Shown: positions 10,499-63,800 of the stretch, in pieces
Numbering within the stretch: the first letter of the stretch is position 1
Layout of the letters: each line of letters begins with the position of its first letter
Assembly (NCBI RefSeq): GCF_910592395.1
Contig: NC_088308.1
Coordinates: forward strand, 17,189,501 to 17,253,500
Length of the DNA stretch: 64,000 nucleotides
Source: Lineus longissimus
Lineage: Eukaryota; Nemertea; Pilidiophora; Heteronemertea; Lineidae
Direction of reading: 5' to 3'
Program-made: the position numbers and the translations under genes
The notes under the pieces: generated by a model
What the model saw: only the letters and a program-made list of their open reading frames with translations
The model's database searches: none
Told to the model about the DNA's origin: nothing

Positions 10499-10676
10499 CA
10501 GTTGAACCTCTCTATTAAGGACACCCCTTGGACTGACAAATGCTTGCCTTAATCAAGAGGTGTAATGATCCAAGAGATCAAATTCAGTGAAAGCAACCAA
10601 TTTGGGCCTAGGTGCAGTTTCCTTAATAGAGAGGGTGTCTTTAATAGAGAGGTGTCGGCTATGGGAGGTTCAACTG
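10499..10676 (+). mobile_element. Tigger/pogo-like MITE, copy 4
   Basis: 178-bp copy downstream of IVD with more divergent ends (CAGTTGAACC and GGTTCAACTG). TA follows the right end. Confidence 0.75.
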
Positions 10677-23400: not shown

Positions 23401-26350
23401 CAAACCCAGCCCGATTATGTCCTGTTTTCTGCCCCGCAGTCCTGTCACCAAGGTGGGAAATATAGGTCGTCCTAATGACTGTCCCGCCGTCCAATTTACA
23501 TGGTGAGAGACATGAGACAGTCACACCCAGCCCAATTATGTCCTACTGGCTGCCCCGCGGTCCTGTCAACTTGGTAAGAGAGATGAGACAGTCACACCGA
23601 GCCTGATTATGTCCTGCTGACTGCCCCGCCGTCCGTTAACCCGGCGATTTAATGAGACAGTCACACCCTTACCAGTCCAATTACGTCCTGCTGACTGCCA
23701 CGCCGTCCCCTTAACACGGTGAGAGACAAGGGACAGTCACACCCAGCCCAATTATGTCCTACTGGCTGCCCCGCGGTCCTGTCAACTTGGTAAGAGAGAT
23801 GATACAGTCACACGCAGCCCGGTTTCGTCCTGGTGACTGCCCCGTTGTCCAATTAACACCGTGAGAGACATGAGACAGTCACACCCAGCCTGATTATGTC
23901 CTGCTGACTGCCCCGCCGTCGGTTAACACGGCAATTAAATGAGACAGTCTCACCCATACCAGCCCAATTACGTCCTGCTGACGTCCCCGACATCCAGTTA
24001 ACACGGTGAGTGACATGAGACAGTCACACCCAGCCCAATTATGTCCTGCTGACTGCCCCGCCGTCCGTCGACACGGCGATTAAATGAGTCAGTCACACCC
24101 ATACCAGCCCGATAAAGTCCTGCTGACTGCCCCGACATCCAGTTATTACGGTGAGAGACATGAGACAGTCACACCCAGCCCACTTATATCCTGATGTCAA
24201 CCCCGCCATCCTGTCAACTTGGTGAGAGAGATGAGACAGTCACACGCAGCCTGGTTACGGCTTGATGACTCCCCCGACGTACAGTGAACACGGTGAGAGA
24301 GATGTGACCATCACACCCAGCCCAATTATGTCCTACTGGCTGCCCTGCCGTCCTGTAAACTTGGTGAGAGAGATGAGCCTATCACACACAGCTTGGTTAT
24401 GTCCTAATGACTGCCCCGCCCTCCGTCATCACGGTGAAAAATTAGACATTTACACCCATACCAGCCCGATTACGTCCTAATGACTGTCCCATGGTCCAGT
24501 TAACACGGTGAGAGATATGAGACAGTCACACCCAGCCCAATTTTGTCCTACTGGCTGCCCGCCGTCCTGTCAACTTGATGAGATAAATAAGACAGTCACT
24601 CGCAGCTCGGTTGCGTCCAGATGACTGCCCTACCGTCCAGTTAACACGGTGAAAAACATGAGACAGTAACACCCAGCCCAATTATGTCCTACTGGCTGCC
24701 CTGCCGTCCTGTCAACTTGGTGAGAGAGATGAGACAGTCACACACAGCCCAATTATGTCCTGATGGCTGCCCCGCCGTACTGTGAACTTGGTGAGAGAGA
24801 TGTGACAGTCACACCCAGCCTGGTTATGTCTGGCTGCCCCGCTGTCCTGTTAACACGGTGGGAGAGATGAGACAGTCAAACCCAGCCCGATTATGTCCTG
24901 TTTTCTGCCCAGCAGTCCTGTCACCAAGGTGAGAAATATAGGGCAGTCACACCAAGCCCAATTATGGCAATAGTGAGAGAGATGAGACAGTTTACACCCA
25001 GCCGAATTATGGGCGATATGAATAAAGACAAGTAAATGCTTTTACTACAATTTTGTACAGAAAGGCCTAGTGTAAATGTACATGGAGTTTTAGATAAAAG
25101 CATTTGCTGGTCTTTATTCATATCACCCTATGTCTTGCTACCTGCCCCGCCGTTCGGTCAATACGATGTGTGAGTTGTGACAGTCCCATTCAGTCCGATT
25201 ACGTTCTGTTGCCTGTCCTTTCAGCATGGTGGGAGATGAGACAGTAAAACCCTGCCCAATTATGTCCTCCTGACTGTCCCCGCTGTCCGGTCAATAGTGA
25301 GAGAGATGAGACAGTCACACCCAGCCTGATTATATCCTGTTTCTTGCCCTGCCGTCCAGTCAATAGAGAAAAGGGACAATTACACACAGAGCTCAATTAT
25401 GTCCTGCTGATTGCCTCGCCATCCGGTCAATAGTGAGATTGATGAGACAGTCACACCTAGCCCGATTATGTCCTGTTTTCTCCCCTGCCGTCCAGTCAAC
25501 TGAGAAATGAGACAATTACACCCAGCCCAATTTTGTCCTGCTGCCTGCCCCGCCGTCCGGTCAATAGTGAGAAATATAAGACGGTTGCACCCAGCCCGAG
25601 TATGTCCTCTTGTCTGTCCCGTCAGCATGGTGGGAGACATGAGACAGTCACACTCAGCCTGATTATGTCTTGCTGCCTGCCCCGCTGAATGGTCAATATT
25701 GAGAAAGATAAAGACATTTGCACCAAGCCTGAGTATGTCCTCTTGCCTGTCCCGTCAGCATGGTGGGAGACATGAGACAGTCACACCCAGCCTGATTATG
25801 TCCTGCTGACTGCCCCGCTGAATGGTCAACAGTGAGAAAGATAAGACAGTTGCACCCAGCTCGAGTATGTCCTCTTGCCTTTCCCGTGGTGGGAGACATC
25901 AGACAGTCACACCCAGCCTGATTATGTCTTGCTGACTGCCCCGCTGAATGGTCAATAGTGAGAAAGATAAGACAGTTGCACCCAGCTCGAGTATGTCCTC
26001 TTGCCTTTCCCGTGGTGGGAGACATGAGACAGTCACACCCAGCCTGATTATGTCCTGCTGACTGCCCCGCTGAATGGTCAATAGTGAGAAAGATAAGACA
26101 GTTGCACCCAGCTCGAGTATGTCCTCTTGCCTTTCCCGTGGTGGGAGACATCAGACAGTCACACCCAGCCTGATTATGTCTTGCTACCTGCCCCGCCGTT
26201 TAGTCAACACAATGTGAGAGTTGTGACAGTCACACCCAGCCTGATTATGTCCTGTTGCCTGTCCCATCAGTGTGGTAAGGGAGATGAGATAGTCACACCC
26301 AGCCCAATGATGCCTTGCTTCCTGCCCCGCCTTCCTGTCCCGCCATGTAG
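14460..26350. repeat. 71-bp-unit satellite block with higher-order duplications
   Basis: About 160 units. A typical unit reads GTGAGAGACATGAGACAGTC, ACACCCAGCCCAA, TATGTCCTGCTGGCTGCCCC, GCCGTCCAGTTAACATG; 71 bp was measured directly at 20641-20712. Subtypes differ in the middle and end (for example CTGTCAACTTG, GTTAACACG, or CGATTAAATGAGACAG). Large segments are duplicated at constant offsets (3328, 992, 1760 and 1476 bp). From about 25140 the units are diverged and include a 126-bp dimeric repeat (25740-26160). No gene and no plausible long ORF lie inside. Confidence 0.95.
25011..25128. mobile_element. 118-bp hairpin MITE, copy 2, inserted in the satellite
   Basis: Same length and orientation as 11850-11967, with about 90% identity. 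It splits a 71-bp satellite unit between AATTAT and TATGTC, with TAT present on both sides, so both the empty site and a 3-bp target duplication can be read directly. Confidence 0.85.
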
Positions 26351-35575: not shown

Positions 35576-36448
35576 TCACAGACGGGTTGCATCATGGTCA
35601 TCTTGTGTGCGTAAGAGTCTTTGACGTTGCTCTTTGTCATACGAAAGTTTACAATGCGGTTTTTGCCGATGCGGGTACCTATTATCCATTCTGTCACTAT
35701 TGACATCATAATATGGACTAAATGCACATGAATTTACTGTCAAGCCACTTGGGCTATTGCCATACCTATCGCAGTTTTTATTGCCAGCACTGTTATGAGA
35801 ATTGCTCCATCTATTTGGCAGGGTGTCAGCACGCTTTCTGTCGAGTAATTCTTCGCACTCTGGCTTTGCACCACCAGAACTCGAAGTATCCTCTGAATCA
35901 CTACCTGAATCGCTGCTCAGACCAGCAGATTTCCTTTGAGAGATTTTGCGATTGTTGTCAGCTTTAGTCTTAGTGCCACCAGAATTTCGCTTGGTTGATT
36001 GGAGATCACGAGGGCCGGTGTATGAATCGCGACTTTCCTGGCTTAAGTACGGAGGGACAACGCCTAGCTTGCCCTCTAACTCGTCACTATCGAGATTTTC
36101 ATAATCGCTTTGATTCAGATCATTGTCTACACAAGAGTCGGGTTTGGAGTTTGACTCCCTTCTACGGGTCGGCGGAGGCCAAGATTGCATTGCGGATTCA
36201 GTTTGAGAACTCTGAGAAGGTGTACTGCCTTTAGAGCCTCCATCAGATGACTCACCAGACACCACCTTCCCGGGGTTGTCGTGATGTTCCACCCGAACAC
36301 ACTGAGGAGTTGAGGATACCCCGGGGAGCCTTGGGCGCATCCCACCTGTTCCATTTTGAATGGAGTCGGCGGTGTCTAATCCGGTATCCTTACCATTCGG
36401 CATGGTTGGAAACGACTCCTTGATGTTGTAAGCGTCTGTTTGGGTGGT
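35576..36448 (-). CDS. Neuregulin-like gene: last exon, intracellular domain, PDZ-type C-terminus
   Basis: Enters in phase 0 after a consensus acceptor (TTCCTTGCAG) and encodes 290 residues. Hydrophilic and Ser-rich throughout, with an acidic serine cluster SSDSGSDSEDTSSS that looks like a casein-kinase-2 substrate. No enzymatic fold is visible; it looks intrinsically disordered, as neuregulin tails are. It ends DDHDATRL, a class I PDZ-ligand pattern (Thr at -2, Leu at 0). A 77-bp piece of this exon is duplicated in the intron upstream (36766-36842). Confidence 0.93.
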   Translation of the reverse strand, partial: TTQTDAYNIKESFPTMPNGKDTGLDTADSIQNGTGGMRPRLPGVSSTPQCVRVEHHDNPGKVVSGESSDGGSKGSTPSQSSQTESAMQSWPPPTRRRESNSKPDSCVDNDLNQSDYENLDSDELEGKLGVVPPYLSQESRDSYTGPRDLQSTKRNSGGTKTKADNNRKISQRKSAGLSSDSGSDSEDTSSSGGAKPECEELLDRKRADTLPNRWSNSHNSAGNKNCDRYGNSPSGLTVNSCAFSPYYDVNSDRMDNRYPHRQKPHCKLSYDKEQRQRLLRTQDDHDATRL

Positions 36449-39400
36449 CTGCAAGGAAATAATCAAATTAATTATCGATTTCAGGCTGCAAGAACAATGA
36501 TGAGGCTGCCCAGAGAGAATGGAATCACCCTACTGGATTTGAACTTTTCAGCCCTACGACCGTGTATACACGGATATCGAATCATTTTCCAGATCCTGCT
36601 GCCGCATATACACGGAAACACCGATACCAGTTTGTAGTTCATCATTGACACGATCCCAAATGCGATTGGGGAGCCATCTACAGTTTGCAAATCGAAGTAA
36701 TAGACTTCTGGACTTCAAGTAAAAATTCACCGATGATAGTTGGTTCATTTTTTTAGTCTACTTGGGAGGGTATCAGCACGCTTTCTGTCGAGTAATTCTT
36801 TGCACTCTGGCTTTGCACCAGAAATCGAACTATCCTCTGAATGTCAAAATCGGCTCGGGCTGAAAGGGTTAATCACAGCTCATAAACAACACTAAATTAA
36901 GGGAAGACCAAAAACCTACGCTTGCAATACTTCAGCAATCATTAAAGGGACAATATAGGCAGCAGCTAGGCAGGTAAGATAAAGTTACACAAAGTCACCA
37001 ATAGGGGTCTCTCACATCTCACAGTACGTCGAAATGATTCATGCTTGTACGAGGAATACATTTAGTGCTGAATCTGTCATGACCCAGGGCCCTTACTGTG
37101 TATATTAGTCACCTGAAGATGGCCAAATTAGCCTCTCTGCTCCTGCCTATAGTCCCCCTTTAACATTAATAGCTTACACTGTTACTCCGCATCATGGTCG
37201 GTTTTGAGGATCCTGATTTTTTTCCATGGTTTGGTTTTGGAAAGTTCCCGGCCCCATCAGACTCTAAACTTTCCGTAATCCTTCTCTTCAACTCCTGCCT
37301 TTCGTGGAGTGCCTTCCTCCTCTTCCTGAAATCAGAAAAGGATGGAGTAGTGAGTATATGGCAATATGGTGGAATCATATTCTCAGCACCAAGTAAACAT
37401 CCTTTCATTGCATCAGCAACAATACGGAGGGACATTGTTTATTTCACAGCATGACCTTTTTATATCAGGTGTAAACAATACATGTACATGTGAACAGTGT
37501 TATTCGAACAGGTGACATCATCCAGGAAGATCACAACGAAAATGACAATTTACACATGAAATCTTAAAGGAATTTGTTGCAAAACATATCCGGCATTTTC
37601 AAAGGCTACGCCCCCGGCTGACACCATTGTTTGTCAATCGCTATGCTCTCAGCAGAAGCACCTGAGAATGAATCTGGTAAAAGAGTCAGCGAAAAGGGTT
37701 AATCGTCCACAGATCATTTTACAAGAAGTGTGACAACTTCCATGGCATCTAAAGATAGCAACAGCTTTGTCACAAGCCTGGGGGAGGGGTATCCATGGAC
37801 ACCACTTCAATGCATCACTAGGCCCTCAGTAATCTGATGCTGATGTCAGCGCTTCCATGTGAATAGGCAACAGAACGGCGATGGCTTTGCTACCGTCTTT
37901 AAATCTATAACTGAATGACGTCTGCGCAGGCCTAATAAATGTCCATTCTGAATGGCAGTTTCTAAAGCTACATGTAAGAAAGTTTCTTTAGTAAACATGA
38001 GGATGGGCCCCATTTAACTTCAACAAGGCAACGGTACAAATGTATGGTACAATAGTCTTTGCAAGAATTTTTAAGTCCATTACTATTATGACGTCCATGT
38101 CCCAAATGTCTAAATGGCACTTTTTCAAAGCTTTAGACAGGAGACCTTCATCAAACTAAGCCAGCTCTCATCGGAAATGAAAAAGGGCCGAAGGTATAGG
38201 TACCAAATCACCTGAGGCATTGTTACAAACTTCTCTTCATCACCATCTTTAGATCTACATGTATAACTGTGATGACGTCCATGAAGGCCTGCAATCCATC
38301 CGGAATGGCAGTTTGAATTTTTAGACTCGTAAGAGAGGGGGTAAGAGGGGGGGGGGGTGGGGGGGGGGGTTAATGAGAGCAGGTAAATGACTCACCTGGC
38401 CTTACAATAGGCCCCAATGAAAATCCCGATCAACACCAACAGGCCAATCACGATACCTAGGATGGTGATGACACGGTCCTGGTGTTGGTGTTCAGCCACT
38501 GAAATCACAAACAGCAAATATCAGTCAAATTCGAGGCAAGAGACATGAAAAGAGTAACGTCTTTATATTGCGTGGTTACAGTAAGCAGGAAGTAAGCTCA
38601 TGTATGTTAGAAATAGAGTTTCCAGACATCCATTGACAGGTTTCACATTTGGCACAGTTCACTACAACAGGTTAGCCATAGCCATTTAAAGTCACTATTT
38701 TCACAAAGTTTCCACCATATTCACTATAAGATATTATCGTCACCACTTTAATGCATGCAAATAGTTATGATTACTATATGATTCACGTGGGAATACTTGA
38801 AGGAAAAGACATATAATGGAATGAAAATAGGCTACACTTTTTCAATTCCTTCAATATTCCCAAACACTGGCCATTACAAACAGTCCCTTCACTCTGATGC
38901 ATAAATTGGGGAGTCATTTGCATTATTTAATGCAGTTGCCTACAAAAGGATGCTTAGTATAGTTAGCCTGACATTCACTCCTTGTCTACCACAGGTAGAG
39001 ATTCTAATAGTGCATCACTTTATGCATTATGGTATTATGCAATAGTAAGCTACTGGGTTCAGAGTCACATGTTACCACCTGTCAGCAATTCCCTGTCTTA
39101 ACTTTAACCAGACTGTCACATGGCTACCACTTTATGTTTCAGAGTGGAGGGATTGATCACCTTTGATTGAGAGCAATAAACAGTCATACAATTCACCATA
39201 TTAATCCTTGGAATATTGAATTTAAACATTTGATACAAACTTAAACCATCCCATCTTAAGATCTGGATTCATTCTTTTATGTCCAATCGACAAACACTTT
39301 GTGACATGGATTTATTTGGCAATTCAAGGTATTCCTTCAGATGATATAAGGTGAATTATTATGCTGATGAGGCACATAAAAACACCAGGACACAAGAACA

Positions 39401-45400: not shown

Positions 45401-48400
45401 TGAGGATGAGAAAGTTTGTTATAACACTTGATTTTTATGTAAAACCAAATTGAGAAATAACAAGAATAAAGATAACAAGTTAATAGTTATCTTCGTCACC
45501 AACAAGCAAAACAGAACAGTTGTCGTGTTCATGATGTCATTGCCCCAATTATTCCAACGGGGTATTCTTTTCAATATCATTAATTTCAATATCAGTATCA
45601 TAATTGTCTCATATTCAGATTGTACTAAGCACCCAATTATCCCCTCATTAATTTCAGGAATCCAGGGTCTTCAAAACAAGAGATGTATCTTTGATGATGT
45701 TTTCTGGTGTAATTCTTCAAGGACTGAATATTAATGGTGGCTCCAAAAAGGGGCAAAAATCAGATTCGTGCTTCAAATGTGCCGACGGAAAGAATAGTGC
45801 AAAGCACATTTTAGGTGATCAAATCCTTATTCAATGATATATAGTTTGATAGGAGACTACACCAAACATTTGTGACAGATTTTCAGTATTGTAGATCCAT
45901 TAATATTTTCAGTCCTTGAGGATTTGGTGAAACAAAAGTGCAAGGGTGTATATGCAGTGCTAGTAAGCTTCACACCAGCCAAATAAACCAAATCCAACCA
46001 TGTTGCATGACATGCATAGAAGCGATATAGTTACATACTCTTGATCTCTCGTAAAAGGATAAATAGGTCTTTGGTCTCGCATCGCTCTCCTGTGAAGTCT
46101 GGTGGGCACCTGATCAACAACGACACAACAAAATGGTGATCATCTAATGACAATATGATACCTGTCCTCATAACGACACTTCCTGGGTTATTGGGGGTTA
46201 TGCTTTGGAAGCTGACGCAGAAAAAGCTTAAGTTATATCATTATTCGACATATTAACATTTAATGCGTGTATGTATATATACACCATGTCTACCATCAGA
46301 GAGACGCTGTCATCAGCCTGGTGTATGCTTGTATCTCCAAGAAGACGAGACTCGCTATTTGTTAACAGATGTAGAGTTGCTAGATTTAAGTGGTGGAGTT
46401 GCCAGTTCTCTTGATGAAAGCAGAGATATAGTGCCGTGTTGCTGTATTCGTGCGAAACCTTACCTTATTTTGCACTTTTGAACATGACAACTCCACTGTG
46501 CAAGAAAGGCCAACCCCGCTGAGATTGTCAACCCAACCATCAGTCAAATAGAAAATAACAGTCAATTTTAAAAAACAATCTTCAACTTGAATCCTTCATG
46601 GCACTACTCCAATACACAGTAGTTCACATTGCCTTGAGGTTTCATATTAAAGATAGTCTTTGACATGTATTTTCTAATCTTGAGAAGGTCACTTCAATCT
46701 CTTTGGGTCAAGAGGAAAGTTGCATGGTGGTCCAGTTTTGATGGTTTTACATTACTTGAGCAGAGATGGCTGATTTGCCCATGACACAACAAGCTTCCTC
46801 TTTAGATCTTACGCAAAACCAATGCACGATGTCATTTAGTCTTAGAACATTCAATGAGCATTTATTGATACATAATTTCGGGAATGATATTGGTGACTTT
46901 TATGACTTGCATGCAATCAGTATTAACCCATGAGTAATGAGAATGATATCATGATTAATTTCTTTATCAATGAGACATTTTCTGTTAATAGCCTTGAGAA
47001 TTGTTACTCTCAACAATACTGAAATGCAGTATAAGTAATAGAAAATAAAACAAACAATTGAACATATCAAAAACTAAAGACAATTTTGCATCCTGTTTCA
47101 TACGAATAAAGAATCTTTTTCTTCAAAACAGTGGTAAATCTAAAGATGATCAAACCAAGCTTTGAAAAAAGGAAACTTTCAAGAACAGAATATTTAAGTC
47201 AGGTTTGAATAGCATTCCATTTCACGCATGGCTATGGAAGGTTCTCCTTTCCTTGGAGTCAAGGTAAGGGAGAGCATTGACAAACTAAGATTTCAAAGAT
47301 GGTTTTTGATAATGGAATGGGATGATGGATTTGAGTCAAACATCTGAAGAATCACTTCAAACTGGGCATTAGTCATTGTCAAACCATGGTCGCATGCATG
47401 GCCGGGGCTTAGTACATGCATTGGGTAATGGTTAGAAACCAAAGAGGCTACTTTGTGCACAAGACCATCAAAGTTCTCTCCCACCAAGAATCGAGTTAAT
47501 TCAAAATGAGATATGGGTTCCAAAGAATGTGAAGGAGAAAGAGGAAGGATCCTTCTAATTCCTAACAGGATCACCTGAAGAGGAGGACAGTTCTCTAAGA
47601 CAGCACAGGCATTCTCCGGCATTTCCAAGATGAATAAAAGGTTATCTGATGGTAAACATGGTTAGAGCTGTACAAAAACCATGTGTATGTGAAAGCACTG
47701 ACTGTTATTAAGAAATACAGCAACTTGGCGCTGCTATTAACAAAGCTGTTTGGTTACATTTGAGTCGTTAAAGCATTGTGTTGACAAGATGTGTGACTGT
47801 CCAGCCACTGGGGTCAACCTCAAGGTTACACATTTCAAAATGGCTGAACACAAATTTGCATCTCAGTTCGAACTCGAAAAAGAATGAAGAAATGAATGCT
47901 GAAACTGATGCACCAATGCTCCAATGCAAATTGTGAGATGTTGTAATGTCCCATCTGCCTCTGTCTCACCTGAACCTAAAGAAGGAGTTCTGATATCAAC
48001 CAAAGTGCAAAGTTGTGTACAGCCGGGGACAGTGCGGATCTAGATATCAAGCAGTCAATTAATAAGGGGACATCTGTGTAACCTGGAGGTTTTGTACGAT
48101 AACGAAAGAAATGAGATTTGTTTTTGACACCCTAAGTCAGTGACATCTCCTATAACCACATGGTTTTTGGGTTTTTAGTATGGTAGCAGTTGGCATGAAA
48201 ATTTATACATACGAAGAACTGGCTTAGTCTTAGGGGTAGGTTGCTGCTTAGGGGTGATAAATCGCAAGTCGAAGTCCTGACATCGATCGCCAGAAAACTG
48301 CAATGGGCACCTGTAATACAAACATCTTGTCCGTTTAGTACATTAGCTTGGTTAAACAACTAGACAAGTTCACGTAGTATGTTCGGCAACTGCCCCTGCA

Positions 48401-51400: not shown

Positions 51401-54400
51401 CACTTCATCAAATTCTTTCATACAGGTTATGATAAATTTTAAGCACGAATTATTAATCTTTTCTCACTATTTGCATGAAGCATTAAAGTCACAAGAAATT
51501 ATCAAAAACTTTATGGGATCAAATTTGGTGAAAAAGTTGACAAATTTTGCCAATCACTTTAACACTAAGAAATTGGCAGGTCAAGGGAAATGTTCCTCCA
51601 AGGGTGGAGACCCTTACCAGCTAATTACACTCATCCATGCTCCTCATGAAATGGGACCTCAGTTCAGGCAAGAGGGGATACAGGATACTCTCTATTGTAA
51701 TGGAACAATGGCTGATAATGTGTTCTTCGGCACTGGAGTGATTACTGTCGCCCGCGATAAATGAATCCCGCCAGCACAGCAGACAGCTCAATTAAATCCT
51801 AGACGTCCCTGGTAAAGTCAACTGATACGATGGGATAATCTTGCAGGATTCATACTTTCAATTTGGAGTGGTGTGCTATTTCAGTTTAAAGGAATATTTC
51901 CTTGAATTACAATTTGATGAATTTTAATGAATATTCGGTGAACCATTAGTATCGTTGCTCTTTATACATTGCTGGAAACTGAAAAACTAAATCGTTCTTT
52001 TCAAGTTATCAGATGTTTACGGCAATTGTCTTTTCATCATATGCAGAAACTTTCTCAGTTGAACTGCAAAACAGCTTTTTATTTCGACCAGGTCAGCCAC
52101 AGTTTACAGACAAATTGCCACGTAAATATATACTATTCAATGGCATGATGTTCCTTTTCTCTCATCAATTATCCGTCTCATGCGCCACAAGCAGGAACTT
52201 TCTCAGTTGACCTGCAAAACAGTTTTTTAGTTCGACCGGGTCAGCCACAAGTTTACGAGACAAATTGCGACACAAATAAACACTATTTAGTTGCAAGATG
52301 TTTCCTTTTCTCTCATCAACTATCCATCTCATGCGCCATTTTAAAACGTATTACTATCGGAAGTGACAACTTACAATCATTTCCATTGTCTTCTGCAGAG
52401 CTCATTGATGCTGTGGTGCAGCAAAGTTATGAAATAAAGCTCTGATCGATAGGTCAACGCCAGAATAGCAGAAACTTTGACTTTTCCCGAGCAAAAAAAG
52501 GAATGGCAATGATGTCATCCTTCCTACTGCCCACTTCAAAAATATATGTTTCAATAGGACAGCTATACCCGTCTTAGTCTAGATCAAGAAGGGATAAGAT
52601 GAAGTTGGTCTTTCATTTCTGTCTGGATACAAAGAATCTGATAAGTTCTAAAGAATCTAGCCTGACTACTGAATGCCGTTTCCTACGTAATAGCCACAAA
52701 TGTGCCTTTGCAACAGAAGACTTGCCTTCTTTCTCACAAACTTGCCAAAGTATTATGTAGGTTCATTGCTAGGCCTACAAGAAATCCAATATCGGAGAGG
52801 TTTACGCAGATTGGGGGTGGATACTCATATGAACAGTATCAATGGAACGTCTAAGCCACACAGCTAATCAGACTAAAAGTACAAGAAGATCATATGATAA
52901 CGTAGTTTTTATCTTGCCACAACCAATGGTGTCTGTTCATCAAGGAGCTTTCTTACCTCCCCCCAAGATGCCCATTCTCCAATTCAATCCACACGCAGAA
53001 TCAGCCAACGGGATGACGTTACACTGCTTTTTTGATGTCATCACTCAAATCTTTTGACAGCTCTAGTATTCTTCATTCCTATAGTTTTTATAATTCAATT
53101 TAACATCTGGGGCAAGAACCCAATAGAATGATATGCAAACAGTAAAGGCGTCATTCCACTACAGCAGGAGTGAATGGGGGAAACCATATAGCTTTCACAG
53201 GCATGGTACTGGTGTTTCACAGGCGTAAGATAAATTTTGATGTAAGTTATTGGTTGGCATTGTTACTGACCATAACAGTCTGTGGAAGCAGTTTGCCGGC
53301 TCTACCAGGGATTCAGGCCTTAATCCCGTTCTTTCCATACCACATTTGGACAGCCTCAAGCAGGTAAATCGAACATTAGCAAACATCAAAATATGCAGCT
53401 GAACAGGTCTTAGCAGAATGTGTCTACTATGTGACGTCAGACGCCCATATGCTCAGACAGTCATTAGGCACATTTTTACAATTGAAACAATTTTCCCATC
53501 TGATTTCGATGGTATATGGTAGGTATTAATTAGATGGAATCTTAGTACCCAGACTTCAAGGATTCAGAAGGAAAAGGGGTCTTACCTGCAGAATTGAGCT
53601 TTGAATGCTGGTAAATATACACAGGTCCCACCATTCAAGCAGTAAGTTTGTTTTTCGCACGGATAATAATGCCCAGTTGGTGCTATTTGCGATGCTTCCA
53701 CTGCAAAGAGAAGAAAGAAATGTTAATACTCTAGTTTCACCAATCTAAGACCACTATGATAATTTCTATGAAATCAACACCGGCCAAGGTACAACATGAC
53801 GTCATGACCACACACTCTTGGTGTCACAACCCATTGTCTATTCAAATTGGTTGACCTTGAATATTTTGCCACCTATTTTTCTGATTTATTTTCACAATTT
53901 AACCCCAGATCAAGAACTAAACCAACATTTCAACTTGGGCAACACACAACCAAGTGTTATGTGATCAGTTGCAAGCAGATGTTTATTCCCTCTTCTAGTT
54001 GTAAAAGCATTAGCCAACCTTAACCTTCCCATTGGCTCAAAATAGAAGCGAAATGTACAATATTGACAACATACAAGATGCCTATTTTGCCTATACGCTG
54101 GAAAATGTTCCTATAGATACTAACAACAGAGAAAGATTAGACCCTCCAAGGTTACAAACTCAGTTTCATTCAGCTCACAACACTCTGATGTACAAAGAAC
54201 AAAGCTGACACCCGAGATATGGTGGCCATATTGGATCCTGCAGACTCATAATCCTTGGCTACTTGAGAAGGAAACTTTTTCCGGTATAACAATAAAGAAT
54301 ATCATGCAGAGATAGAATCTCGCTTTGAATTGGGTGAATCATTTTGAGGTAGGCCCTGTTCTGCTTATATTCATGGAACTTGTCAATTATCTAGGAGAGG

Positions 54401-57400
54401 ATCTAGCCTATTCGATGTGACTGTCACAAACATTTTCAGAACAGAAAACTCTTGTCTAAGTTGAAACATTTGGAGGAAGGGCCTGATCTACAGATATTTA
54501 GGAAGCTCCAACCAAGTTTTATAATCAATTAAAGTTCTAGGATAATCAAGGCCAGAAAGTTGGAAAAGAATTTTTCAGCCAAAGAAACTCTCGTCTTAAG
54601 TAGAATACACCCGTAGGCATTTATTGGTGACAGGGAGGATCAAGTCCTCAGAAGCGTTAAGTTTCCCTGAGGGAACTTAATATCGGTATTCCGATCACCG
54701 TTACAAAGGACTGATCTTCCTGTACCGATTGCTTCCGCAAGAAAAAGGCGAGGAACACCTACGCTCATCCCACTCCTCCTACTTCAACTATATGCAATTG
54801 TAGCCGCATTCAATGGAGCTCGGTTACTACTAAGACCAACCATAGTCAGAAAACGATTTCAATAAAATGATAGAACTGATGTGTCCTTTTTATGAGAAGT
54901 TTCAAACTATTTGTGCACACCCTGGAAGAGGAATGGAACAGACTGGTGCTATCTGATCGCCAGTGTTTCTTGGTGACAACTCAAATCTATACACACCGCC
55001 ATCATTTGGAGATTTCTTTCTCACACATATTGGTTTGATAAAACAAACTTCAATTTCAAAAGTTATAATTCGCATAACATGGTAGAGGGTGATATTTTAC
55101 AGATGGTCGCACCGCATGTTACACCAATGACACCAGAACAATTAGTCAAGGTCTGGTGGTAATCCTGTTTGCAGAACAAATGGCATCAATACATCAGATT
55201 AATTAGTAAATCAATATAAGGACTTATTAGCGATTATATGCCGCAAAGGTCAGAGTGGCGAGTGTCTTTGCTGCAATCGCCAGCTAAATGATGGGATCAG
55301 CTGTTCTCTCAGTCGATGATTGTCCCTAATACTGGGTGTTGAGTATAAGCATGACCATTAACTCCTTCTCAGCCAGATTCCCTTAACACCTTCTGCACTC
55401 AAATCATGATGCGGTTCTGTTTTCAAGTAGTAAAGCTTTCGCTAAAGAGACACTAAAGAGTAAGTTGATTATTTTAATGGAAAGATATATTCAAATCAAA
55501 CAATATCTGACTTGGCTTTGAACTCCAAGGATAAAGGAGATAAATGTCATTTTGTTATTCTTCAACCATTCAGACATACTGTAGGGTCAATCTAAACTGC
55601 TTCAGCCAGGAAACATGTAGGGTGTTTCTAATTCTTCAGCTGGGAAGTATAGGGTCAATCTACTTCTTCAACAAATTCAATATTCTTGTTTCCAATTATC
55701 CCAATTTTAGCGCAGACTGACTTCGAATGCGAAGGAATTTGATATTTTTTTCGCGCAATTTCACTGGCATATAGATCTCAGCACTCATGATGAGATGAAT
55801 TCGGTGCACAGGGGCAATTAAATCCAAAGATCATTGGAAAACTGCTTAATAAAGGCCAATAACGGGGACATTTTGAGTCCGACAAGGACCTAGGGAAAAA
55901 GGCTGATATTAATAACCGAATTTAACCCAGTTAAATCTGAACAGAGTCACAGCGTGGCCATTTTAACCATTCAGGGACTGACCTTAGTTCCAAAGGTTAG
56001 AAAATCTCCCCCTGGCCTAAATTGTAAGTAGTCCTATCAAAACCTGGTCACATCACCACACGATCTTTGAAGCGACCGTTTCCCTTGAGTGTCCTGCCAA
56101 CAAGTGATTTTGTCGGCCAGATCAACTCAAAAATAGGCTGAGGGACTCTCCTGTTCCCATTTCGAGGGATAAAGATGTTCTTACCATCAGTCACTGACTC
56201 TGGTGGCGCTACTGTCGTTCTGATGGGCTGCACCGTGGTAGTAGTTGATGTCGTCTCTTTTCCATTCAATATGGATTCAACTGTAACAGAAAGCAGACGT
56301 TAATGCCGTGAAAATAACTTGTATTTTACTAGAGTCATGATGGCCATAAGCCGTTGTTAAAAAAACCCAAAGAGGTTTTCATACTAAAACATGAATATAT
56401 AAATGAAATAAATAACATGACAAAGACAGTTATACTAAATTCTAAAGACTCTATAGTTTCACCTATCTAATACCGCCTCAAGAATCCATGTGCATATTTG
56501 AAGTCTGTCTGAACTCTTCAGAAACTGTCTTAGATAGGTGAAACCAGAGCATATCATTATGTGTGTCAGAAATATGCAGGCGCGTGATGTTAAATTTGTT
56601 ATGATTAAATTTGTTAATTAATAACAAAGTTATAAGTTATATACAAATAATTAAGAAAATTTGTCTGAAGAAAGCCTTATTTTTTCAAAACTTGGCAACA
56701 AATAGACGACAGTGAAGTGACAAATGTATAATATGGTGACAAAAGTATGTTCTGAAAACAGGGTGAAGAATATAAACGTGTACTGAACAAGTCATCAGTT
56801 TTAAGTTGGAATCACGCAGCGTTGCCTTTGAGACTGTGTCAAGGAGGTCTATAAAATCCCGTATCAATACAAAAACAAACACTTTCTTTTGTGGCATTGT
56901 GTCATCTAAAGTCGGAAAAACGTTCACTTTTCTATTGATATAAGATTTTAAAGACCTGCAGTGCCACAGACATTACCTTGAGGACCATGCAACAATTTCG
57001 ACAGGAAAGAAAAATTAAGAGGATAGCTGAATTTTACCAACAGACAAATTTCAAGTTGACAAGTTCTGCGCACATTAGGTGCAAATGATTGCGAACTTCT
57101 TGAACTTGAATATTGTCTATGGCATGCTGTGGGGTGTAGTGATTTAAGATTGCATTGAGGTGTCTATAGGTAAGAAAAAAGTTTTCGATATTGCCAACAC
57201 ATAAGAATACTCCTGGTAAGTCATATTTTGATCAAGAGTGCATATGACTTGAAGTTTTTGCCAATATGGAATTAAGGTTTTTCTTTGCTCTCACACAGAA
57301 TGATTAAGTAGGTTAGCTGTCTGATGCAATAAGATAAAAACATAAAATGACTTAAAGACAACTATATAAGTTGACAAGAGGAATCCAATGTCTCAAATGA

Positions 57401-60308
57401 AATGAATCATTGCCAAGATTTGCTCCTAAAAACGCTAGAAGGTTTTCGCCAGGATAGGACTTGCGGAGGGGAAAAAAATTGGGGCAGGGGCAATTATTCA
57501 ATATTGTATGTTTTTCAGATGGCTTGACACTTTCAACATGTTCAAGAGGATGAAATAAAGAAGAATCTGGGAGTTGGCTGGAGTTCACAAAAAAAGAATA
57601 AGCGAGGATATCGATGTACGATGGATAATAAAAGCAATGTTTAAAAAGCAATTGCGATAATCTAAAAGCTTGTATAAGGAAGCGACTACAAATTTAGATG
57701 AAAAATCCACTGGATTCACAACATCGATTTTACCTGTTGAAGATTTTGAGGTTGTAGCGGTTGAAAGTAAAGGTCTACTTGTGGAACTCCTGATTATAGA
57801 CGTAATACTGATTGGCTTGCGCGTGCTAGCAGTCGTTGGCAAGATATGAGTTGGCTCTTTTGTGGAATTGGATGTTATATTTGGCTTAACTGGTCCTATA
57901 GGAGGGGATGTCACTGGACTGACTGGAAGATGTAAAGGCCAACATGCTATAGAAATATGGAAGCATTAGTCGCACAATGATTAAAACATGAAATTAATAA
58001 AGACAGTAAATGAGTGATGTTAGTGAGTTCGATAGGAATCCGTAGTATCCTCTGTTACTCTTGCCACTGGATAGAAGAGTAAATGCCACACCGGAAGCTA
58101 TTGGACCCCAGGCCTTCCGTTTCTCAATCCAAAAGATTGCCATCAAAGCTGACAATAACTTACAAAGCAACAAGATAACTGCACACAAACTGCTGACTGT
58201 CTTAGCGAGGGTTAAAACATTGACTCTGCTAATGTATACTGTGGACTCTTGAACAGCTTACCAGCGCAGATGACACAATTTTCAAAGCTTTCAGTTCAAC
58301 AGATTTTACACAGTCACTGAAGTGAAAGACTAAATACTGAGTTCACTTCCTGAAACTCGCCCTACCAACCCACTCTGTAGCTTACATTACACCACCAATC
58401 TACAGACAATAACAATCATCATCATCCCCAGCATCTTCTTCAATCTAATACAGGACAAAACCATCCCATTCTCGACGAAGCCCTACTTTCCCCGCAGACA
58501 ACCCCGCGCTATGCATTCGACAGTAGTGACGCGGATATTGAAAATGGTCAATTGATTACATTATTTTTATCAGTATAGCCTATTAGTGTGAAATACCAAG
58601 GGTTAGCCCGGCTTGTGGATCCAGAACATCAGTGTCAACGCTAACAATAGCTCAGGGACTCATAAACTCAAGTCTTATGTTGTTACACTAAGGCGATGAG
58701 ATGACTGCAGCAGGCTCGAGGCCATGAAACGCTTTGCTCAGGATCAACACAGGAAAAGTCCGCAGGGTGGTTGTAGTAATTTACATCAACTAGCTCAGAA
58801 TGCTGTGATTTTTCATCAAATAGAACAATGCTTTAGACATTCTGTGGGGACACAATCCCTCTTTTTGACAGAGAAAACAACAACAACCTCGAGAATTGAT
58901 GACCGTTAAAGAAGACCCAGGTTGTCTTATCCCCATCCCAGTGCACTGGACTCTTCACTCAAATTGTGGTACCATCATTCCGGGCACTCTTTCAGGGGGT
59001 GGCAATCAAAAAACGTTAACAGAAATAAGAAGTCAGATTTGCTCATGGAATACACTCTCAATAGGACACAGTGATGTGGGCAAACTTTATTTAGGTAAAT
59101 TAACCCCGGACACAAAGCGACAACAATTTGACACACAACATCGACCACATTACCTGTGGTTGTTTTTTTTTTATATGGCCTACGTGTCTTTCCTGATGTA
59201 CCAAAAGGTGTAACTGTAAAGAAGCATGCAGTCAGGGTTAGAAAAGAAGAGACGGAGACAAACACAGAATGGGGTAATTGTAGCCCCGGTTTATTAGTAG
59301 CCCGTGCATTGTTTGATGCATGGGGATATCAATCAACACATAGGGTACAATGGGGTAATTGTAGCCCCAGTTTATTTGTAGCCCGTGCATTGTTTGATGC
59401 ATTGGGTTATCAATCAATATCATAGGCAGGGGCTACAGTTAAACCGGGGCTACAATTACCCCATTCTACCTTATATGGGCCGTTTACACACGCAGCCAAA
59501 AAGTGCCCATTTACAAAACCCGCCTAATGTGGTCTAATGGAGATGCAAATGAGAAAAGAAGCTCTCCAGGTGGTTTTGTAAGGAAAGTGCCTTTCAGTCC
59601 ACGTAAGACCTGATTGTGGGTTAGTTCGCATTTAGACAACCAAAATCGATCTGATCTTAACTGGCCTTTTTCAGTGTGTGTAAATGGCCCTTATACCCAG
59701 TGATGTAATGTGTTAGAATGAAACACACAGATCTCACGCACATGGGCTGTTTTGGAAATGAACGGTTTTGTTGCAAAACACGATAAATGCCAAATCACGG
59801 TTCAAAATCTAGATTTGGGCTCCACAAACTTCATGTGAGTGACTAAGCCATTTTAAAACCTTGGGGGTCAAGATGTAAAGCAGATTGTGCAGGGATTTAT
59901 AGCATTTTGCAACCAAACTCTCCTGGTACAAGAAGATCATTCAATAGTGACGATGGGACAAACGTACTCTCTTGAAAACAAACCATAAGGGAATACTACT
60001 ATAAACTTGTTTATTTTTGCAGATTTTGCAATTAACCATGATTGGCGAAATAAAAAACGCAAAGAACTTTACAACCAACTAAATAAAAGTCGTGAAAATT
60101 GGTATTTTTAGAAATTTTCGCAAATTGCAAAAATAAATAAGTTCCAAAATTTTGCCGTTTACAGTAGGTAGTGAATAGAAGAGAAGGCTACACTCGGTAT
60201 GCATGATTTTGAGCAAACCTGGTGTAGATTTCTTTTTCGAGTTTTTCTTCTTCTTTTTCTTCTTGTTCTTCTTGCGCTTCTTCAGTTTTGAACCCTTAGG
60301 CAAGGGTG
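35576..60308 (-). CDS. NRG: Neuregulin-like transmembrane EGF ligand (5' end not found)
   Basis: Supported exons in transcript order: 60219-60308, 57734-57946, 56185-56280, 53586-53700, then 48213-48310 or 46039-46109, 38396-38498, 37178-37325, 35576-36448 (TGA at 35578-35576). A candidate at 42313-42491 is extra. All phases join. Layout: Lys-rich and Thr/Ser/Pro-rich ectodomain, one EGF domain split across two exons, short stalk, transmembrane helix, dibasic stop-transfer, and an intracellular domain of about 340 residues. The EGF-to-membrane stretch with AEHQHQDRVITILG, the helix, AYCK, then KALHERQELKRR, resembles vertebrate neuregulins position by position. Family members are shed by metalloproteases and activate ErbB receptors. 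Signal peptide and any Ig domain were not found and may lie beyond 64000. An AATAAA on this strand at 35363-35358 may end the transcript. The vertebrate-style symbol is by family, not proven orthology. Confidence 0.88.
36766..36842 (-). pseudogene. Partial copy of the neuregulin-like last exon in its own upstream intron
   Basis: 77 bp match exon positions 35820-35899 at about 90% identity. The frame is still open and reads EDSSISGAKPECKELLDRKR against EDTSSSGGAKPECEELLDRK in the exon. An AG stands just before it and a possible GTAGAC donor just after, but those sites give phase 1 entry and exit, which does not fit between a phase 0 donor and phase 0 acceptor. Probably a non-functional segmental duplication. 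Confidence 0.75.
36942..37163. mobile_element. TTAA-flanked MITE, copy 3, beside a splice donor
   Basis: TTAA at 36942-36945 and 37160-37163; ends AGGGACAATATAGGCAGC and inverse of CTATAGTCCCCCT. It is the inverted counterpart of 30960-31185. Only 8 nt separate it from the donor hexamer (37177-37172) of the 37178-37325 exon. Confidence 0.85.
37178..37325 (-). CDS. Neuregulin-like gene: juxtamembrane cytoplasmic exon
   Basis: 148 nt, phase 2 in and phase 0 out (donor GTAAGC). Completes AYCKAR and continues KRRKALHERQELKRRITESL, then a Gly/Lys/Ser-rich stretch ending TMMRSNS. The basic run after the membrane followed by (K)ALHERQ corresponds to the conserved cytosolic juxtamembrane segment of neuregulins. 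Confidence 0.93.
38347..38369. repeat. Poly-G tract (11 G, T, 11 G) close to the transmembrane exon donor
   Basis: Lies 27-49 nt inside the intron after the transmembrane exon. On the transcribed (minus) strand it is a C-run; the plus strand could form a G-quadruplex. Could also be a site of assembly error. Confidence 0.8.
38396..38498 (-). CDS. Neuregulin-like gene: transmembrane exon
   Basis: 103 nt, phase 1 in and phase 2 out; acceptor TGATTTCAG, donor GTGAGT. Encodes AEHQHQDR, then the hydrophobic segment VITILGIVIGLLVLIGIFIG (20 residues), then AYCKAR. Phase 1 entry matches the phase 1 exit of both alternative EGF exons. Confidence 0.95.
41371..41790. repeat. 25-bp minisatellite, about 16 units, in a neuregulin-like intron
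   Basis: Units ACATGAAAACCTTTAGAAAA then AGGTG or AGGTA, 25-26 bp, more diverged at the right end. The Phe/His-rich minus-strand ORFs here come from the repeat. Confidence 0.92.
42313..42491 (-). CDS. Candidate alternative neuregulin-like exon (stalk cassette or secreted terminus)
   Basis: After a good acceptor (pyrimidine tract, TTCTTGCAAG) an open frame entered in phase 1 reads NNEAVSGKLIKAPTNKGNES, then AYYKGFETGEEIIAGKSHFI, and ends EEWACP and TGA at 42315-42313. Phase 1 entry is what either alternative EGF exon would supply. A donor GTGAAG at 42401-42396 would instead give a 90-nt cassette (42402-42491) leaving in phase 1, directly compatible with the transmembrane exon. Read to the stop it would give a soluble ligand. 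There is no clear family resemblance beyond its position, and it could be an intronic chance ORF. Confidence 0.4.
46039..46109 (-). CDS. Neuregulin-like gene: alternative EGF C-terminal exon B
   Basis: 71 nt, phase 2 in and phase 1 out; acceptor TTGATCAG, donor GTATGT. Encodes CPPDFTGERCETKD followed by LFILLREIK: the fifth and sixth EGF cysteines, the conserved F-T-G-x-R-C core and a short hydrophobic-then-basic stalk. Upstream partner is 53586-53700; downstream partner is the transmembrane exon. Confidence 0.92.
48213..48310 (-). CDS. Neuregulin-like gene: alternative EGF C-terminal exon A
   Basis: 98 nt, phase 2 in and phase 1 out; acceptor TGTATTACAG, donor GTATGT. Encodes CPLQFSGDRCQDFDLRF, then a Pro/Lys-rich stalk (TPKQQPTPKTKPVL). 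Same cysteine pattern as exon B but a different loop and a longer stalk. Including both A and B would shift the frame. Confidence 0.9.
52046..52338. repeat. 148-bp tandem duplication in an intron
   Basis: Two copies offset by 148 bp, both with AACTTTCTCAGTTGA, TCGACC.GGTCAGCCACA and CTTTTCTCTCATCAA blocks, about 85% identical. No coding content recognised. Confidence 0.8.
53586..53700 (-). CDS. Neuregulin-like gene: EGF N-terminal exon
   Basis: 115 nt, phase 1 in and phase 2 out; acceptor CTCTTTGCAG, donor GTAAGA. Encodes EASQIAPTGHYYPCEKQTYC, then LNGGTCVYLPAFKAQFC and a split Arg. It supplies EGF cysteines 1-4, with the C-x-N-G-G-x-C signature. The first loop holds only five residues between cysteines 1 and 2. 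The exon is constitutive in this model. Confidence 0.94.
56185..56280 (-). CDS. Neuregulin-like gene: Thr/Pro-rich stalk exon 2
   Basis: 96 nt, phase 1 in and 1 out; acceptor TTTCTGTTACAG, donor GTAAGA. Encodes ESILNGKETTSTTTTVQPIR then TTVAPPESVTD: a probable O-glycosylated spacer just before the EGF domain, comparable to the Ser/Thr-rich spacer of vertebrate neuregulins. Confidence 0.82.
57734..57946 (-). CDS. Neuregulin-like gene: Thr/Ser/Pro-rich stalk exon 1
   Basis: 213 nt, phase 1 in and 1 out; acceptor CCATATTTCTATAG, donor GTAAAA. Encodes CWPLHLPVSPVTSPPIGPVK, then a Ser/Thr/Pro-rich run ending SKSSTG. Mucin-like composition; contains an NxT/S sequon (NITS). A single cysteine near its start is unpaired within the exon. 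Confidence 0.72.
59268..59466. mobile_element. 199-bp inverted-repeat element with an internal 80-bp duplication
   Basis: GAATGGGGTAATTGTAGCCC at the left end is inverted at the right end (…GGGGCTACAATTACCCCATTC). The left arm is duplicated in tandem (offset 80 bp, second copy from 59349). No ORF; it lies in a neuregulin-like intron. Confidence 0.72.
60219..60308 (-). CDS. Neuregulin-like gene: candidate lysine-rich exon
   Basis: 90 nt, phase 1 in and 1 out; acceptor GTACACCTCCAG, donor GTTTGC. Encodes APLPKGSKLKKRKKNKKKKK then KKNSKKKSTP: 18 lysines among about 30 residues. The phase fits the next exon. Vertebrate type I NRG1 also has a Lys-rich N-terminal stretch, but similarity of such sequence proves little. 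It might bind heparan sulfate. Low complexity weakens the call. Confidence 0.5.
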
Positions 60309-60831: not shown

Positions 60832-63800
60832 CTCTCCCCTCCCAAATATTCACAGCAAACAGCCAAAAGCAATTAGGACATGCAGGGTGGAAAAAATCAC
60901 TTTTCCGTCGGTGAAGGGATTTGCCTATTCCAAGCTCCTACACATTCACCAAATGTCACAGCCACACAATTTAGGGTAAGGAACAACCACACATTCTATT
61001 CAGTATTCATCCTAAGATGTAAATCAACTACAGTAGAACCTCTCTATTAAGGACACCATCGGGGCTGACCAGTGCTGTCCTTCATAGAGAGGTGTCCTGG
61101 TTGAAAAGGTCAAATTGAATGGAAACAACCAATTTGGGACCAAAACTAGTGTCCCTAATAGAGAGGTTGTCCTTAATAGAGAGGTGTCCGCTAAGGGAGG
61201 TTCTACTGTATAGTTAACCAGACATTTCGGATTAGTAAAAACTGGGAAAACTTTTGATCCCCTCCCATGCGCAGAGACACATCTCAAATGGACGTAGGCT
61301 TTAGGAAGACAGCGCTACATTGTATATCAGACATTCTTTCAGTTCTAAATGGGAATGGACAGTTACATACAATCTTTACCAATCTTAGCCATTAATCAGA
61401 ATGGAGGCTCTGACCAAGTATGTTCGTTCGACCACTAGTTTAACAAATCCGTTAATGGTGAAATAATCTGAACGGTTAAAGCTAGCCAACCAACAATAAT
61501 CAATCAGAACTGTGACATGATATCCTAGCTACTTCTTCTTTTATTGCTCCCTGACATCCTCTAAGTGACCTAGTTGTCCAATTCCAACATTAAAGGGACA
61601 ATTTGGGCGTGGCATTTCCTAAAATGATGCCGTTTTTTGCCCTTTCGAATTTCCCCAAATCCCATTTCAATCACTGTTATTGTGGCCTGCACCAATGATG
61701 ACCACCGAAAAACCAGTGTGTTTTGCCGTATGCGATTATGATTGCAGTCACTTCGATAAAAATCTCTCTTTTGTGAGCCGCTTAACTGGTAAGCTTATAT
61801 AGATAACTGAATTATCCATATATATGGATAACTGAATTATCCATATATGGCACCAGAAGATACCATATGACAAACAGCTATAGACCTGGTGGCTAGCTCC
61901 ACACCCACACACCAAATCCTCAAGTGTACCATCACCATTCCATCTTCAGAATCTTAAGCATTCTAATCTGCATGCGGTGTCTAATGTCTTCTCATTAGGA
62001 AACATTCCTCATCCACGCCCACACAATGACATCTCAAGTACAGCCAAACCTTCAAGGAATTCCTATTGCTATCACTTAAACTACTTATTTGGTTAATTGG
62101 GATGGCGAAATGAACAGAAGATTTCCGACCATTTCCCACACGAAGGTCTGTTTTTGTGCACGCAGGAAGCTAATACAATGATAAATCAGCTGATTTTGCA
62201 GATTAAGCTAGAAGATCCAGTGATGATGAAGAAGAAGTACAAATTTGCAGCTACCTATCCAGTTCATCGTTGTCCTATCAGGAAACGATTTCAAGACACA
62301 TAGAAGACAAAATCAATGAAAATAGTCTTCGATGCATCGAAAACTTTCCATAAAACAAGACTTTTATATTATAAAGTTGGAGGCACTCAGGTCAAAAGTC
62401 CCCCACGCTCAAAACTGCAGTGACATGCATTGCCATGATTGCTTATTGCTGGTGGTCATTGCAGGTACCTCAGGTCAAGAATTGATGATCCGAAGACCTG
62501 TGATCCAAATCACAAACCCTGCGATAACCAGTTTTACAACAGAGAAATATTTTTGTCCCACAGAGCAGTGATTATAATCGCAGGAACATGTAGCAGCAAT
62601 TTAAATCTCTTGTTTGTGTATTGCTTGGACTAAGTACTGGAAAAGAGTCGAGAGTTCTTTTGATGGGCTCCATAATCAATACAGCCTTGTTATGTTGTAT
62701 TAAAGGTATCTGATTCCAGCAATGAAGCATGCCCAGAAAGAGATTAGCAACTGGCCGATACGCCTCGTCCCTATACTACTCTGAGGATGATGATCGGCCA
62801 AGGCAATGAACCAACTTGCCCGTGACTGAACCCCACCAGACCATACTGGAGATAATGACCCGGGTCAACATGGGCTTCTCCCTGCCAAGATCAATAGCCA
62901 ATGATTAAATACGCTGTTGGTTCACTATGAAATTGTCTTGCTGAATGATGCATAATATTGGTGAACAAGATTGAGTTAGGGTATGATGTTCATCTTCGTG
63001 CCGCAGGGGACGCCATTTGAAAACCAGGTTAGAAGACAAACCAAATGGCATGGAGTAGTACCAATATTTATAACTGAATATAGTATGGCATGGATGGGTT
63101 TGAGAATTTGACAGTTTGGGTGAATGTTTGCACCACTTTATGTGAAAATAGGTTGGGTGCATTAGAACTTCTGAAGTGTTGATAAAGCGTCGACATGGTC
63201 AAATGCATGATCAGGGGGTGCACAGTTTACCTTGACCGCTGCATCAGTTGGAATGACAACATATGACGACATGACAAAAATACAATGTAGGCCTAACTTA
63301 TTTTGTCAGTCAATGGTTGGTTTCCTCTAGTAATGAATGAGGCCAATGCGACCTGACAAGCAAGACAGCCTGGCTCATGACTTGATGCCACAAAGGATCA
63401 CACTCTTTATATCACTACAAATCTCAGCGGAAGACTGGAAAGACACATTCCCTATATAGGCCAAAAGTGACATGACTGATTCTGGGGATCGTGAGATCAG
63501 GCCAGTTGTTTTAACTGAGTGTTCTAGAAAACAGACACCACTATTTGATACAAATTCTGTTCCACAAGTCACCTACTGACGTGCTATTCATTGACTTTGA
63601 TGAAAAGAAAATCTTGAAGCAGTCTCCAGTTAGAGTGTTTTCGTCTTCTTGATGGATGGATAGACAGACCATCTGTGGCCGATCGGGATAAAAACAGAAG
63701 GGATTTTGGAAAGGACAACCGATAGCCTCGGGCAATATCGCAGTCCTTGAGCCAGAAAAATCCACAATACCCTCAACAAAGGGCTGAGTTAATCAACCTA

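Follow-up and report, generated by a model that had tools for sequence, protein, structure and literature searches.

Results

A neuregulin-type gene in the window

The DNA analysed here, referred to as the window, is a stretch of 64,000 nt from the nemertean Lineus longissimus (contig C1, positions 17189501-17253500; coordinates below are those of the window unless a contig is named). On its minus strand lies the 3' portion of a gene, which here encodes residues 254-803 of an annotated protein (P0002). A protein search with the isoform containing the exon called A below as query returned 'pro-neuregulin-1, membrane-bound isoform-like isoform X6 [Lineus longissimus]' (P0001), with 100% identity over the region searched, and isoform X2 of the same protein (P0002), with 90%. 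Both X6 and X2 are automatic NCBI models, examined as the representatives of clusters with one and five members (two of six sequences). Alternative models of this sort from NCBI's pipeline are as a rule based on RNA-seq.

In Pfam, P0001 scores 35.0 bits for NRG2_N (cut-off 27) and 60.8 bits for the Ig I-set domain, and an EGF domain is present; inspection of the exon that directly follows A or B reveals a hydrophobic stretch corresponding to a transmembrane segment. The combination of EGF, Ig I-set and transmembrane segment, by which PMC4914847 recognizes neuregulin-type ligands, is thus complete in the Lineus protein. The domain matches and the pro-neuregulin-1-like annotation uphold the earlier note, which had read an invertebrate neuregulin gene from the letters alone, and we take the predicted product to be an invertebrate neuregulin-type ligand of Lineus longissimus. 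Unlike vertebrate NRG1 and NRG2, however, the protein has no match to the neuregulin cytoplasmic domain family, which Pfam does not report at E up to 1 in P0001, in P0002 or in a related protein from Tubulanus polymorphus (P0003). For this reason the gene is filed as neuregulin-type and not as NRG1/NRG2 proper.

A search of the 391 Mb genome with P0002 gave 13 matches, 12 of which lie on contig C1 between 17320481 and 17225079. The remaining match, on contig C15, is a weak one that spans 46 residues from the Ig region with 43% identity. A single neuregulin locus was therefore found in the genome, with 56 of 74 candidates scored. The matches outline a gene of ~95 kb whose first coding exon lies ~67 kb beyond the window and whose Ig exons are likewise upstream of it. 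On the plus strand of the window, an open frame at 3713-4087 matches the acyl-CoA dehydrogenase N-terminal domain at 68.2 bits and is probably one exon of a gene on that strand.

Exon map

Exons were read by frame and splice site, and comparison with P0002 gave S0 and the S1 acceptor at 57922. All of the following lie on the minus strand. The coding sequence enters the window through the spacer exons S0 (59154-59213, TPFGTSGKTRRPYKKKTTT, ends read by eye), S1 (57734-57922, Ser/Thr-rich, VSPVTSPPIG...KSST) and S2 (56185-56280, Ser/Thr-rich, VESILNGKETT...SVTD). S2 is common to X2 and X6, and S0 and S1 (59213-57734) are in X2 and not in X6, forming a second alternative region between the Ig and EGF parts. 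The first-half EGF exon (53586-53700) supplies Cys1-Cys4 and exits in phase 2 at a gtaaga donor. Two exons that each supply Cys5-Cys6 follow, namely exon A (48213-48310, CPLQFSGDRCQDFDLRFITPKQQPTPKTKPVL), which adds a Pro/Lys-rich stalk and is used in model X6, and exon B (46039-46109, CPPDFTGERCETKDLFILLREIK), which adds a short stalk and is used in model X2. Each of the two is thus used in one annotated isoform. Both isoforms share the juxtamembrane and transmembrane exon (38396-38498, AEHQHQDRVITILGIVIGLLVLIGIFIGAYCKA), the cytoplasmic exon C1 (37178-37325) and the last coding exon C2 (35576-36448), which includes the stop codon.

Two repeated segments were noted around the cytoplasmic exons. 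A partial copy of exon C2 (89 columns, 90% identical) lies at 36842-36757 on the minus strand, in the intron just upstream of C2; it corresponds to the genome match at 17226245 on contig C1, which contains one stop. Moreover, an inverted repeat pair (36937-37163 and 31190-30960; 231 columns, 94.8% identical) has one copy that starts ~15 nt downstream of exon C1.

Exons A and B as alternatives

The exon model reproduces what the earlier note had proposed for A (48310-48213), B (46109-46039), the end of the first-half exon at 53586 and the start of the transmembrane exon at 38498. Both A and B open with the G that completes a split Arg codon (AG|G), carry Cys5 and Cys6, enter in phase 2 and leave in phase 1, as had been claimed. 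The A peptide begins CPLQFSGDRC... and the B peptide CPPDFTGERC..., and each exon ends one base into a codon before a gtatgt donor; the five other donors of the exon model read gtaaaa, gtaaga, gtaaga, gtgagt and gtaagc. The predicted difference in stalks is also present, such that A has 23 residues, rich in Pro and Lys, between Cys6 and the shared AE, and B has 14. U12-type splice sites were considered as a cause of exclusion and rejected, the introns being GT-AG with gtatgt donors.

With A alone (98 nt) or B alone (71 nt), the frame stays open through to the stop at 35576. Joining A to B results in a frameshifted tail of 37 residues with a stop within the transmembrane exon, and omitting both results in a stop at the start of that exon. 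Because both exons enter in phase 2 and leave in phase 1, a membrane-bound precursor can come solely from A alone or from B alone. The statement that including both exons breaks the frame therefore stands as a computed result, shared with NRG1, but it does not make double inclusion impossible: PMC11360300 describes a human NRG1 isoform with both exons, which has a frameshifted C-terminus and no transmembrane domain.

Could such a pair occur by chance? Both strands were scanned for an acceptor with phase-2 entry and the pattern C-x(2-4)-[FYW]-x-G-x(1,2)-C, followed by a donor in phase 1. The scan yields exactly A and B on the minus strand, together with a single place on the plus strand (54078) that is without a donor. 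The chance expectation per 64-kb strand is 0.13 places, or 0.033 with a donor (first-order Markov model, 60 simulations). The A/B exon structure is thus confirmed as real at base resolution, and the annotated isoforms support A and B as alternatives in a layout that matches the NRG1 alpha/beta choice.

Soundness of the two EGF halves

Against a Pfam EGF cut-off of 21.5, the A form scores 21.7, a marginal pass, and the B form 26.4; among precomputed domains, an EGF entry exists for P0002 and none for P0001. In a PDB search, the A form matches mouse EGF at 1.5e-9, NRG1 (3u7u) at 1.6e-7 and heregulin alpha (1hre) at 1.6e-3, and the corresponding values for the B form are 3.6e-8, 1.1e-6 and 4.3e-6. 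Both exons keep the Gly and Arg before Cys6 and the Leu five residues after Cys6 that are seen in mouse EGF. These residues are important for EGFR binding. Given that both exons keep them, neither looks decayed. Codons of A and B differ at 9 of 17 first, 4 of 17 second and 11 of 17 third positions, a pattern in keeping with constraint that presumably acts at the protein level. The pyrimidine tract at the exon A acceptor appears weak by eye. AlphaFold models from a four-sequence alignment have a mean pLDDT of ~33-46 over the EGF region in both isoforms, which is too poor to use.

The Stein and Staros criteria for ErbB/EGF-receptor ligands, as given in PMC1618406, include a six-cysteine EGF module, an EGF module near the transmembrane segment and a splice site between Cys4 and Cys5, the last of which is held to mark ErbB ligands. 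In Lineus, a six-cysteine module is formed with A (marginally) and with B, the exon with the hydrophobic segment directly follows either of them, and the exon junction falls inside the codon between Cys4 and Cys5.

Comparison with vertebrate NRG1 and NRG2

According to PMC9471952, the EGF domain of NRG1 is encoded in its 5' part by a core exon common to all forms, and in its 3' part by either of two alternative exons. The Lineus gene agrees with the earlier note in having this architecture, with two second-half EGF exons of matching phases that each rejoin one transmembrane exon. Up to AQFCR the two Lineus forms have the same sequence; they part at Cys5 and come together again at AEHQHQDR. The corresponding alpha and beta exons of human NRG1 enter in phase 2 and leave in phase 1, and the beta form also rejoins at AEELYQK. 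In the PDB entries (1hre, 7mn5, 3u7u), the human alpha and beta EGF modules share their sequence as far as SRYLCK and diverge at Cys5, after which the alpha chain runs on into AEELYQK. A comparison of the SRYLCK and AQFCR boundaries places the start of the switch at the same residue in both, right after Cys4-x.

The likeness has its limits, since Lineus, unlike the vertebrates that carry NRG1 and NRG2, is a protostome in which a single neuregulin locus was found. Lineus has a Cys3-Cys4 loop of 10 residues, as mouse EGF does, versus 13 in NRG1, and the fifth residue after Cys6 is Leu in both Lineus exons versus Met or Pro in NRG1.

Related proteins in other invertebrates

Protein searches returned neuregulin-like proteins from two nemertean species and one gastropod. 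In one of these searches (7993 candidates scored), 19 of 23 rows, among them neurofascin, Robo, neuronal cell adhesion molecule and some nameless proteins, were dropped as driven by the Ig domain. The search needs shared five-residue words, and for this reason the absence of other phyla is no evidence.

In the palaeonemertean Tubulanus polymorphus, isoform X2 of LOC141903692 (P0003) resembles the Lineus protein in domain order, in a B-type second half and stalk and in its juxtamembrane and transmembrane sequence, although its NRG2_N score of 25.5 lies below the cut-off of 27, unlike that of P0001. The Tubulanus exon is identical to B at 15 of 24 residues and to A at 9 of 24, and 0.98 of bootstraps place it nearer to B than to A. 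In the gastropod Gigantopelta aegis, isoform X2 of LOC121379914 (P0004) has precomputed NRG2_N and Ig domains, as in Lineus, and no precomputed EGF entry; an EGF-like stretch nevertheless precedes its hydrophobic segment. Its second half (CPRTFTGARCEQL) is near neither exon (6 of 17 residues identical to A, 8 of 17 to B). No A-type exon is present in P0003 or P0004, each the one representative of its cluster (three and two members), and since one sequence stands for each 90% cluster, an A-type isoform could be hidden in either species. From published descriptions, Drosophila Vein can be likened to the Lineus protein in combining Ig and EGF domains (PMC4914847) and in a splice site between Cys4 and Cys5 (PMC1618406).

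Over 17 residues from Cys5, exon A is closest to mouse EGF (10 of 17 identical), and shares 8 of 17 with each of B, Tubulanus and NRG1-beta. At the nucleotide level, similarity between the surroundings of A and B is limited to words of 9-10 nt at most (E 0.88 or worse), and accordingly there is no sign of recent segmental duplication.

Motifs and repeats around the alternative exons

Two minus-strand copies of TGCATG lie near the alternative exons, one at 46016, 23 nt beyond exon B, and the other at 48404, ~90 nt upstream of exon A. TGCATG is the motif of RBFOX proteins, whose sites at such places can promote or repress an exon. The four 300-nt flanks of A and B hold two TGCATG where the 25 kb around them would predict 0.94, which is no enrichment, and the window as a whole has many copies (32 on its minus and 24 on its plus strand). 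A role for RBFOX has been set aside and is mentioned as a lead only.

A perfect inverted repeat of 15 nt (48405/48533) lies upstream of exon A, with a fold z of -3.54 and one of 200 shuffles as good. Repeats of this kind, with loops of up to 500 nt, occur at ten places in the window, including this one, and at none in 20 simulations; three of the ten places have one arm in common. Our guess is that the 48405/48533 repeat is the relic of a mobile element, and possibly it acts in splicing. Elsewhere in the window, short foldback elements at 4117-4248, 10507-10634 and 61038-61185 share the arm CCTCTCTATTAAGGA, have loops of 21 to 118 nt and are MITE-like. Large tandem arrays with units of 42, 45, ~71 and 126 nt occupy 7547-8597, 12189-14100, 14498-24966 and 25234-26330, the third of which exceeds 10 kb. 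Rfam gives no match in the window at gathering thresholds.

Discussion

We hypothesize that splicing in the Lineus gene links an invariant first-half EGF exon to one of A and B, and this one in turn to an invariant transmembrane exon, and that the resulting modules differ in a way that sets the potency of the ligand, its shedding, or both; we give this reading a probability of roughly 80%. According to this model, the pre-mRNA would be spliced from the first-half EGF exon to either A or B and on to the transmembrane exon, and skipping or double inclusion would shift the frame and end translation at or within that exon. The EGF modules displayed by the two precursors would be unlike in their C-terminal sub-loop and in the stalk, which would be longer and Pro/Lys-rich with A and short with B, and cells could in this way select how potent the ligand is at the EGF receptor and/or how readily its ectodomain is shed. 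Of the two exons, B is probably the more conserved form, found in two nemerteans, and A the more divergent one. An mRNA with both exons would encode an EGF-A form that has no transmembrane segment, and since its stop precedes two further exon junctions, the A+B mRNA may be degraded.

What would such a switch tune? PMC9471952 states that ErbB4 is bound more tightly by NRG1-beta than by NRG1-alpha, and an effect of the Lineus exons on ErbB affinity would be an extrapolation from vertebrates. For Lineus ruber, a congener of L. longissimus, the tables of PMC4914847 list one EGFR and four EGF ligands, one of which is neuregulin-like. With a single EGFR in the congener, the vertebrate account built on ErbB3 and ErbB4 is not simply transferable to Lineus. 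With one receptor, the switch would offer no choice between ErbB3 and ErbB4, and its role is likely to be the tuning of potency or shedding at that receptor.

The choice may matter mainly through the stalk, by way of metalloprotease shedding or membrane presentation, and not through receptor binding. The largest difference between A and B does lie after Cys6, in the length and composition of the stalk, and neither EGF core has lost the residues seen in EGF. However, the Cys5-Cys6 loop differs as well, and the alpha/beta choice in NRG1 is accompanied by different affinity, so that we regard this restriction to the stalk as rather doubtful. A second alternative is that B is the working exon and A a young, little-used or functionally empty copy. 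The conservation of B in Tubulanus, the lack of any special closeness of A to Tubulanus or to B, the marginal Pfam score of A and the weak tract at its acceptor would fit this explanation. It is hard to reconcile with the retention in A of both cysteines and of the Gly, Arg and Leu, with second codon positions being the least changed, with the use of A in annotated model X6 and with scores by which A beats B against both mouse EGF and 3u7u; this alternative is consequently very improbable.

A further explanation concerns origin, for which the earlier note rightly asked whether the switch predates vertebrates or arose twice; it holds that A and B are homologous to alpha and beta, having been duplicated before the protostome-deuterostome split, with one copy lost or hidden in other lineages. 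The equal position and divergence point of the two switches speak for common descent, as does the better score of B than of A with heregulin alpha in PDB. In quartets over 17 residues, BLOSUM sums are highest when A is paired with beta and B with alpha (86), followed by A paired with B (78) and A with alpha (60), with bootstraps of 0.66, 0.34 and 0.00; identities in the same order are 15, 15 and 12 (bootstraps 0.58, 0.42 and 0.00). When Tubulanus replaces B, however, the preference vanishes in BLOSUM sums (78, 79 and 69; bootstraps 0.48, 0.46 and 0.06) and is reversed in identities (14, 15 and 14; bootstraps 0.34, 0.52 and 0.15). The motif GDRCQ is common to A and NRG1-beta, but mouse EGF has it too, which argues that it may be ancestral. 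Moreover, an A-type exon is missing from the Tubulanus and Gigantopelta representatives, although the 90% clustering could hide one. On this balance we consider homology of the two pairs unlikely. The related proposal that a half-EGF switch already existed in the bilaterian ancestor, where it had one EGF receptor to act on, and has persisted in both Lineus and vertebrates appears more unlikely still; if it were true, the switch would be older than the ErbB3 and ErbB4 receptors that it supposedly tunes. Instead, the somewhat likelier history is that an exon was duplicated in tandem independently of the event in vertebrates, and this preference is based on the lack of an A-type exon in the Tubulanus and Gigantopelta sequences.

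Among the matches listed in a search of open-licence PMC articles, none treats, by title or start of abstract, an invertebrate neuregulin with an exon choice of the alpha/beta type, and the main text of PMC4914847 has no occurrence of 'splic-' or 'isoform'. As far as this literature goes, the finding extends a familiar type of switch to a further phylum, Nemertea, and automatic annotation already contains it. In the papers cited here, the alpha/beta choice of neuregulins is a matter of vertebrates, animals with four ErbB receptors. The same layout in a protostome with one neuregulin locus, whose congener has one EGFR in the tables of PMC4914847, suggests that several receptors are unnecessary for it. 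Either the switch is ancestral, or the intron between Cys4 and Cys5 makes this exon easy to duplicate and the duplication happened twice.
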